Assembly: GCA_949317995.1 (NCBI GenBank)
Contig: OX439038.1
Coordinates: forward strand, 1,630,001-1,694,000
Source of the DNA: Acholoe squamosa
Taxonomy: Eukaryota > Annelida > Polychaeta > Phyllodocida > Polynoidae
Length of the DNA: 64,000 bases
Direction: 5' to 3'
Below are positions 5,375 through 8,300 of this stretch, in pieces; the first letter of the stretch is position 1; each line of letters starts with the position of its first letter. The translations under genes and the position numbers were made by a program. The notes beneath the pieces were generated by a model that saw only the letters and a program-made list of their open reading frames with translations, was not told the DNA's origin and ran no database searches.

Positions 5375-8300
5375 CTGTGGGGGGAAAACACTTTATTTGA
5401 TGAATGGAAAGATCTCCTTGACTGACATGCCCAGTGGGCAGGTCGCATTGGATCTGTGATGACAACTGGTTGATAAAAGTTGAAGGTTGATTTTATTTTT
5501 TTCAATGTAGATTGATACTTTTCAATATAGATTGATACTTTTCAATTCAATATATTGTGTGCCCACTGGAGCAGTACAGAGAGGCCAAAAAGAGTACAGG
5601 TATTGTTCATTTAAGGCATTAAGGGCTGCTAATGTAGGTCCGTTGGTCATCATGATGCACCAATGGAGTGCTGCCAAGTACTCACCAGCACTTCATTGGT
5701 GCATCATGCTGAACCTCTGGGAGTGTATCAGCCCTGGCAAGTAACTTGCCAATTGTAAATGGGCCATGAAGACCACTGTAGTGGGTACAGTACAACCCAC
5801 ATCAGGTCATTGGTTTTGTACCTACAGTACCTACCACTGTTTTCTAGAATTAGAATAAAACCCTTGCCGCGGTCTGACAGTGTAGTTAGCAAACCCTTTG
5901 TGCATTCTAACTCAATGGACAGGAAATCTCAATTTAAGAATTTTATTTTTTCATTCTTAAGAATATGCAGAAAATGGCAAATCAAAAGCTCGCCATATCA
6001 GTTACTTACGAACTTACCGTTTTAAAGCTTGTTTTCCCAGACAACTCACTCCAATCAATCTTCCAACTAGAGATCATGTGAAGCTCCGCTAGGTCACGTT
6101 TTCGCCTGGAGATTAAGACGACCAGAAACAAAACAGCATCAAATTAGGTTTGTGTAATAGGTGTTCAGTGATTTAAGTAAATAAGTGTCGCCATAGTTTA
6201 ACATGCTTTGTAATGTGTTGGATATTTCCAAAGAAAGGAAGGATTTGGTTGAAGGAAAAGGGATTGAGAAAATATTGTATAATTCCAAGAAATATTGAAA
6301 ATAAATCATTCTTATCTTCAGTGAGCTCTCAATGCACTGTCATGCCTAAAATATCAAATATTGGCTCTGAGAAAAGCAGATTATTGAGTAAAAATGAAGT
6401 TAATTCATCAAAAAAGGTCTCATATGTGAACCTGCATGGCAGATATCAGAGGTGGCGGACTAATGGAGGTCCAATTAAACTTGGCCATTGAACAAAAAGG
6501 GAAAATTGAAATGAAACAGTGACTGTGTCAATTACCTGTAGTAGAAGAAGGTGGCAAGGGCAGCGATGGTGGTCAGCCCGGTGATGGCAACAACGACAAT
6601 CAGGGTGATGGCCTCTGTAACAATTACATACAGTTTTACTATATTATATTACCGTAAAACCTTTACTGCACATTGGTAGGCATGATGCATGAATCCAGCC
6701 GTTATGAGTGCTGCATCAATGCACCATGCCCAACCTATCTGTAGGGGCAATGTCAAAGGGAGAGCATGATGCATGAAAGCAGCCGTTATGAGCACTGTAT
6801 CCCTGTATCATGCCCAGCCTATTTGTAGGGGCAATGTCAAAGGGACAGCATGATGCATGAAAGCAGCACAAGCATGCATCAATGCATCATGCCCACCCTA
6901 TTTGTAGGGGCAATGCCAAAGGGACAGCATGATGCATGAATGCAGCACAAGCATGCATCAATGCATCATGCCCACCCTATTTGTAGGGGCAATGTCAAAG
7001 GGACAGCATGATGCATGAATGCAGCACAAGCATGCATCAATGCATCATGCCCACCCTATTTGTAGGGGCAATGTCAAAGAGACAGCATGATGCATGAATG
7101 CAGCACAAGCATGCATCAATGCATCATGCCCACCCTATTTGTAGGGGCAATGTCAAAGGGACAGCATGATGCATGAATGCAGCACAAACATGCATCAATG
7201 CATCATGCCCAGCCTATTTGTAGGGGCAATGTCAAAGGGACAGCATGATGCATGAAAGCAGCACAAGCATGCATCAATGCATCATAGACCTGATGCATCA
7301 TGGGTAATGCACAAATAGCCAGTAAGGGTCTAAAACCTTAATAGACTGATTTACTGGATTTACAATTAAGCTGTTCCATTAGTCTGAACTGGTTGTCATT
7401 CCTTAATACAGTTGTAGGTGCAGTAATTCCCCGTACTTGGTGGAGATACCGAGTGGTCCCACCTTGTGAGGGGGATCTCTAGAGAGCTCGGTACCAGGTA
7501 ATCACTGCCCCCTAGTGTGTGTATCATACCGATCCAGGTGTAGTTGGAAGGTAGAGAATGTCAGGCCAGGGGAAGTAGCTCAGGGGTAGAGCTTCCGCTT
7601 CGAAGTTGGAGGGTCCCGGGTTCGAGTCCCGGTTTCTCCATGACATTTTCCACTGACCACTACATTGGTGGAGAAACCAAGCATCCTAACGCAATCACGG
7701 ATTGAAGGTGCGGGAACCCCGTATCTTAACGCAATCATGGATTGAGGACTCGGGAAGTGGGCCAATATGATACAGATGACGCTTCGACCAATCCGGTACT
7801 TGTACCAGTACACCCACTGGGAAGTCAGGAGTGCCCCAACACTGCTTGATAAAGCCTCAACTCTCAGGTAACTGGATTGAGGGGGAATGCCGGGTGCTAG
7901 TGGATGGTGGTTGAAGCTGATGGGGAGGAGTGTAGGGGCAGTAATTCCCCGTACTTGGTGGAGATACCGAGTGGTCCCACCTTGTGAGGGGGATCTCTAG
8001 AGAGCTCGGTACCAGGTAATCACTGCCCCCTAGTGTGTGTATCATACCGATCCAGGTGTAGTTGGAAGGTAGAGAATGTCAGGCCAGGGGAAGTAGCTCA
8101 GGGGTAGAGCTTCCGCTTCGAAGTTGGAGGGTCCCGGATTCGAGTCCCGGTTTCTCCATGACATTTTCCACTGACCACTACACAGTTTATACATGTGAAA
8201 CCCAACATACAATCCACAACATGAGTTCCTAAACATACCCTAAGTCTGAGTATATAAGTCAGTATAACCCTCTGATATATAACTGATATGTTATATATAT

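Follow-up and report, generated by a model that had tools for sequence, protein, structure and literature searches.

Positions 7413-8182 of the window (the whole 64,000-nucleotide stretch of Acholoe squamosa DNA analysed here) are occupied by a Helenus-type TRIM, a small LTR retrotransposon that is non-autonomous. Each of its LTRs encloses a tRNA sequence, and its primer-binding site (PBS) is the complement of that tRNA's own 3' end. Five related families, its own among them, differ in their tRNA ends and yet preserve this fit, so that the primer is likely to be the element's own and not one borrowed from the cell. As judged from sequence, the element probably supplies its reverse transcription primer from the tRNA gene of its LTR, at least partly in trans and with a Gypsy element as the putative helper.

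Architecture and genomic copies of the element

The element is 770 bp long, comprising a 252-bp LTR, a 266-bp internal region and a second 252-bp LTR, and is bounded by the target site duplication CAGT (7409-7412 on the left and 8183-8186 on the right). The 5' LTR (7413-7664, TGTAG...CTACA; plus strand, as are all features of the element given below) aligns in 30/30 genomic loci and differs from the 3' LTR (7931-8182) at two sites only (7419 T/G and 7620 G/A). The PBS, TGGTGGAGAAACC (7666-7678), adjoins the 5' LTR, and a polypurine tract (PPT), GATGGGGAGGAG (7919-7930), adjoins the 3' LTR; GGGAGGAG adjoins U3 also in several sister-family copies. The two LTRs, the CAGT duplication and the polypurine tract claimed in the preliminary description are all borne out by the LTR alignment and the sequence. 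The paired LTRs, the total length below 1,000 bp, the lack of coding capacity and the placement of the PBS and PPT are those of a TRIM, and the sole stop-to-stop frame of at least 110 amino acids over the element is antisense and without a protein homologue. A tRNA-derived SINE (with a tRNA head, a tailed 3' end and no LTRs) is excluded by the paired LTRs, PBS, PPT and 4-bp duplications.

Each LTR contains a 72-nt tRNA cloverleaf, as had been described, which is found by ARAGORN and by the Rfam model RF00005 (7569-7640, 51.3 bits; 8087-8158, 45.4 bits). The A box (7576-7587) and B box (GGTTCGAGTCC, 7619-7629) of the 5' LTR tRNA are read from the sequence by the consensus of the two boxes. The earlier claim of intact A and B boxes stands for this copy but not for that of the 3' LTR, the B box of which is mutated (G to A, 8138). 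The window tRNA has an acceptor stem paired at 7/7 positions (G-U included) and the anticodon CGA on an Ala-like body (G3:U70 and A73, presumably the Ala identity elements). The Ser label assigned by ARAGORN is dropped, as the long variable arm is absent and the body is Ala-like. A TTTT of the Pol III terminator type (7646-7649) lies between the tRNA and the PBS. Folded alone, the window tRNA gives another hairpin at -28.1 kcal/mol, compared to -21.6 kcal/mol for the cloverleaf.

Both LTRs also carry a PBS-like site (TGGTGGAGATACC at 7438-7450 in U3 of the 5' LTR, and 7956-7968; each 12/13), a fit attained by none of 5,000 first-order random LTR sequences. The site is apparently a duplicated PBS-leader segment, and its likeness to sister-family leaders extends, by eye, beyond the tRNA complement. 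A 40-bp tandem duplication (7667-7746), the second copy of which is 78% alike, starts inside the PBS. The 5S rRNA that marks Cassandra and Ajax is absent from the LTR, as Rfam at the gathering score returns the two tRNAs only. Viral contigs give short matches of at most 74 nt, mostly tRNA-like or PBS-sized, and no related element.

A search of the host genome (1.48 Gb) with the 770-bp element, in which 40 of 2,368 first-look candidates were scored, yields at least 43 matches, all full length and some overlapping in tandem arrays. The 30 loci fetched (L122-L151) are partly non-independent (L122 is 99.95% identical over 3,770 bp to L123, the window copy itself, and L147 has flanks in common with L155); among them, the PBS fits both LTR tRNAs at 13/13 in 28 and at 12/13 in L126 and L143, and exact 4-bp duplications are present in 24. 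One of the six loci without the duplication, L140, lies inside a tandem array. Tandem LTR-internal-LTR arrays of the TRIM occur at L140 and L156. The preliminary description had proposed counting LTR-internal-LTR copies with 4-bp duplications, which prove common (24/30 loci), and had named as contrary evidence a genome of mostly single copies with SINE-type tails; full-length copies with paired LTRs are instead the common form.

Joint change of the primer-binding site and the tRNA end

The PBS at 7666-7678 is the exact complement of the last 10 nt of the tRNA plus CCA (13/13), which confirms the earlier reading of this site. Among 200,000 first-order random internal regions, none reaches 13/13 within four offsets and 2 reach 12. 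The tRNA ends TTTCTCCA with A, C or G as the next base have 2,774 genome matches (control, 0), and many of the 100 matches listed are paired at a distance of 396-757 bp. All six such pairs fetched resemble TRIMs, the recognisable repeat of L195 being only 106 bp long; the PBS is TGGTGGAGAAACC in three and one base off TGGTGGAGAAACC in the other three. The PBS pattern CTACANTGGNNNNNNNNCCGAG has 1,976 genome matches, compared to 13 in the backwards control, and fixes CTACA, TGG and CCGAG, such that other classes would escape it.

The PBS classes were surveyed in 100 listed matches of the 1,976, all on one chromosome; five rows with no recognisable B box (L207, L232, L266, L278 and L286) were left out and 95 were kept. 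The tRNA end of a copy fits the PBS of that copy at 10/10 positions in 73, 9/10 in 14, 8/10 in 4, 7/10 in 1, 5/10 in 2 and 2/10 in 1, so that 87/95 readable copies match their own PBS at 9-10 of 10 tRNA positions. The PBS falls into five recurrent classes, some of which are separated by just 1-2 of 10 positions: class 1 (TGGTGGAGAAACC, 62 copies), class 2 (TGGTAGGATCACC, 6 copies), class 3 (TGGTGGAGACACC, 12 copies), class 4 (TGGTGGAAACACC, 5 copies) and class 5 (TGGTAGGGAAACC, 6 copies), besides four singletons. In each recurrent class, the commonest tRNA end is the exact complement of the PBS, tied in class 4 (2 and 2) with an end that is one base off. When the tRNA ends are permuted among rows, the observed sum of 907 is attained in 0/10,000 permutations (mean 806, maximum 843); a chance match of PBS and tRNA is excluded by this class permutation together with the random-sequence test. 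The 5' acceptor strand GGGGAAG is common to classes 1 and 5, and GGGGATG to classes 3 and 4, and within each pair the 3' end and the PBS vary jointly despite the equal 5' strand. Sister families whose primer site bears no relation to the tRNA in the LTR, which would have spoken against the preliminary description, are not what the survey returns, as PBS and tRNA covary.

Judged by its arrangement and pairing, the embedded sequence has the look of a tRNA gene that has been maintained. In the 87 PBS-matching (9-10/10) copies, the PBS starts 23-28 nt past the tRNA end, and TTTT lies 4-8 nt past the tRNA in 85. In every recurrent class, the modal acceptor stem is paired at 7/7 positions, counting G-U, an A box being readable in 84/87 of these copies. 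An alignment of 12 chosen embedded tRNAs from six classes has 96.7% of cloverleaf cells paired and 10 pairs with double changes, either value being attained in 0/500 shuffles, while slid controls of the alignment are 39-55% paired; further pair types are not above the shuffles (119/500) in this 12-tRNA alignment. A share of the cloverleaf covariation may stem from different cellular tRNA ancestors. Within the window family, the constraint on the tRNA compared to the rest of the LTR has p = 0.0002 by element counts and p = 0.24 by sites and, because of this disagreement, is not taken as proof.

The 31:39 pair is absent in 12/12 aligned embedded tRNAs of the six classes, leaving a 9-nt anticodon loop that may exclude these tRNAs from translation. 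In individual copies from classes 1, 3 and 4 (L192, L193, L197, L208 and L214), the anticodon region 31-38 is an 8-nt palindrome (CTTCGAAG, CCTGCAGG, CTTGCAAG) that resembles a kissing-loop dimerisation signal. As a general dimerisation signal the palindrome is at most tentative, the examples from classes 2 and 5 being without it.

Source of the primer

The self-supplied primer is proposed to arise by Pol III transcription of a pre-tRNA from the LTR, which would halt at the TTTT ahead of the PBS, and by completion of the 3' end of this pre-tRNA by RNase Z and the CCA enzyme. The CCA-tailed tRNA would anneal to the PBS of TRIM RNA, in trans between families as well, and a Gypsy element whose LTR ends equal those of the TRIM would provide the enzymes that copy and integrate the TRIM DNA. 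Since the primer used serves as the template for a new PBS, each PBS would record priming by its own tRNA.

A Ty3/Gypsy element is found in the window (about 27021-39459, minus strand), the LTRs of which start with TGTAGGGG and end with CCACTACA, like those of the TRIM. In addition, AGTTGGTC lies past the PBS in the window Gypsy and in sister TRIMs alike. Unlike the TRIM, the Gypsy element has protease, RT, RNase H, integrase zinc-binding and zinc-knuckle domains; its rve integrase core scores below the Pfam cut-off. The pol pieces scanned are at 23753-25398, in the first copy of the 99.7% duplicated unit. The Gypsy PBS, TGGTGCCGTGACC (39029-39041, minus-strand element), presumably fits the 3' end of tRNA-His. 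It is by its common LTR ends that the Gypsy element is a putative partner of the TRIM. At about 39320-39400, the Gypsy LTR forms a hairpin that includes a B-box-like GGTTCGTATCC, and the Gypsy region contains a 9.9-kb unit that is tandemly duplicated with 99.7% identity (15979-35781). Long minisatellite arrays occupy 46000-51806, 53541-56850 and 59178-61097 of the window.

The window tRNA probably derives from a cellular tRNA because of its likeness to host tRNA-Ala, with which it has 57-59 identities in 74-75 columns. This likeness also agrees with an account, judged unlikely, in which a host tRNA primes each family and the LTR captured the same host tRNA during reverse transcription, the match reflecting common origin only. 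Consistent with capture, the window PBS is matched at 12/13 by host tRNA-Ala-AGC, and the host survey covers tRNA-Ala (an anticodon-arm pattern with 214 matches, control 0, and tRNAs read in 30 loci) and C-followed ends, a scope compatible with this account. The host tRNA-Ala ends read in these loci are GTTCTCCA (AGC), CATCTCCA (TGC and CGC) and CGTCTCCA (one CGC), with the exception of one variant copy and one cut by the locus end. Among four host tRNA-Ala compared, the TGC and two CGC tRNAs fit the window PBS at 11/13, below the AGC tRNA and the 13/13 of the element's own tRNA. Against the five classes, the sampled host ends equal none, agreeing at 4-9 of 10 positions where the own tRNA agrees at 10 of 10. 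A dense tandem tRNA-Ala-AGC cluster (G000:C12:51451327-51477176) accounts for 72 of the 100 listed places of the anticodon-arm pattern and may extend further. The five embedded 3' ends (GGTTTCTCCA, GGTGATCCTA, GGTGTCTCCA, GGTGTTTCCA and GGTTTCCCTA) were also searched for as any of the five followed by C, which gives 44 genome matches (control, 0), 40 of them read and the others being two lone places and two that lie 721 bp from each other. By eye, these 40 of the 44 C-followed matches are all an embedded-type tRNA or part of one, and none is a host gene that has one of the five ends. The joint variation of 3' end and PBS between classes 1 and 5, and 3 and 4, is likewise at odds with capture, and is as expected if the PBS follows its own tRNA. 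Self-supply is thus favoured over simple capture, because the sampled host tRNA-Ala are without the required 3' ends and the 40 of 44 C-followed ends are without a host gene. Between the two origins offered in the preliminary description, it is the self-supplied primer that gains support, from the PBS-tRNA covariation and from the host tRNA-Ala sampled.

A role as promoter only, the published TRIMp3 idea, is very improbable as the full explanation; Pol III would transcribe the element RNA with the tRNA sequence as promoter, and complementarity to the PBS would play no part in priming. The A and B boxes that it needs exist, and it is the role proposed for Helenus, for which Kojima 2024 (PMC10886601) reports no PBS complementarity. 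It does not account for the covariation of tRNA end and PBS in five classes, nor for the full pairing, in each recurrent class, of acceptor stems that a promoter does not need. The TTTT ahead of the PBS in 85/87 copies also weighs against it, since transcription by Pol III from the 5' LTR is expected to end before the PBS unless termination leaks.

The C-followed ends include 31 (of the 40 read) in which the tRNA is followed by CCA, one nucleotide and then the reverse complement of the LTR 3' end. The other nine are one CCACCA and eight without CCA, six of these being plain LTRs with C past the tRNA. The CCACCA is that of L349 (which has the same junction as L326) and resembles the tag put by the CCA enzyme on unstable tRNAs. 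In about 8 of the 31 junctions the left side ends, by eye, inside the tRNA. The cDNA class, readable in 17 of the 31, is the same as the tRNA class in 14, different in 2 and a variant end in 1 (L330). The two cross-class junctions, L303 (a class-3 tRNA on a class-1 type) and L333 (class 4 on class 1), fit trans priming, as trans priming predicts. Fourteen junctions, made up of 13 from the 31 plus that with CCACCA, were extended with longer flanks. Three of these (L341, L350 and L351) are separate insertions with 4-bp duplications, and L341 joins a class-3 U3 and its tRNA, in one arm, to a whole class-1 LTR in the other. The mature tRNA 5' end is present in 0/14, the upstream sequence being that of the LTR, with the PPT too in 6, which weighs against a free tRNA as the primer.

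Junctions of this type are what tRNA-primed cDNA would leave, while foldback in plus-strand synthesis could also yield them. It fits the junctions that RT read through a U3-tRNA-CCA primer, which would be direct evidence of priming. A second origin that fits them is foldback, in which a plus-strand strong-stop DNA with the PBS at its end would have paired with an LTR tRNA, and for which complementarity suffices; the junctions could be such products because their CCA is present in every PBS too. A form of self-supply that is possible, if doubtful, is that TRIM RNA carries its own primer, the 3' LTR tRNA being matured and CCA-tailed while joined to U3 and the body and priming at the PBS of this RNA or of a different TRIM RNA. 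The inverted copies (internal-PPT-U3-tRNA-CCA-N-reverse LTR), including the two-family chimera, would then be the integrated record of attached-tRNA priming. Least probable of all the explanations is that foldback maintains the match, the 3' end of the strong-stop plus strand folding on the LTR tRNA, keeping the complementarity and yielding palindromic copies, with the tRNA never a primer. The junction copies are indeed largely inverted repeats with U3, not a mature tRNA end, upstream, and 3/14 extended junctions have exact U3 starts at both outer ends and 4-bp duplications, as would a foldback product. Foldback, however, leaves unexplained the first origin of the PBS-tRNA match, the TTTT and the cloverleaf. 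Moreover, in the two cross-class junctions the end beside the foreign U5 has the class of the tRNA itself, which points to that class as the one that primed or supplied the PBS.

Comparison with known systems

LTR retroelements and retroviruses are taught to be mostly reliant on a host tRNA primer. The named TRIMs with tRNA-derived sequence in their LTRs are Helenus, for which no complementarity of the LTR tRNA to the own PBS was found and the PBSs were assigned to cellular tRNAs (Kojima 2024, PMC10886601). The present element is the same in being shorter than 1 kb and non-coding and in having two LTRs, an LTR tRNA with A and B boxes, a PBS, a PPT and tandem arrays (here L140 and L156); its 4-bp duplications are those of animal Helenus, and the Gypsy partner, putative here from the common LTR ends, would be a further likeness. 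By contrast, the LTR tRNA and PBS match here and covary in five classes. Thus, a tRNA in the LTR is already known (PMC10886601), and what sets the element apart is its match to the own PBS. The uncommon design claimed in the preliminary description is qualified accordingly, as the LTR with tRNA sequence has been published while the tRNA-PBS match is uncommon. This match contradicts the specific statement on Helenus in PMC10886601, and would be a further reason for keeping a Pol III gene. Among the titles and abstract openings listed in searches of open-licence PMC articles, no other report of an LTR tRNA that matches its own PBS was found. The same paper, in its remarks on Cassandra, describes a plant TRIM with 5S rRNA in its LTRs that serves transcription (PMC10886601). 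On these remarks, the two are alike in placing Pol III gene sequence in the LTR of a miniature element and differ in the gene, 5S rRNA there and tRNA here.

If true, a family with its own primer gene would escape dependence on host tRNA, and its choice of primer would be evolvable within the element. The five jointly changed tRNA/PBS classes would form a natural experiment, in which co-switching of primer and PBS becomes directly testable. The primer of Tf1 is the 5' end of its own mRNA. Tf1 is named as self-priming in PMC6934838. Compared to this type, the element itself likewise provides the primer, which here would instead be a CCA-tailed tRNA. In a laboratory construct reportedly made by Lund in 1997 and referred to in PMC3185771, an engineered retroviral PBS was matched by a supplied tRNA-like primer. 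There, the supplied tRNA-like RNA complements an altered PBS, whereas here the pairing of a primer gene with its PBS would be natural.
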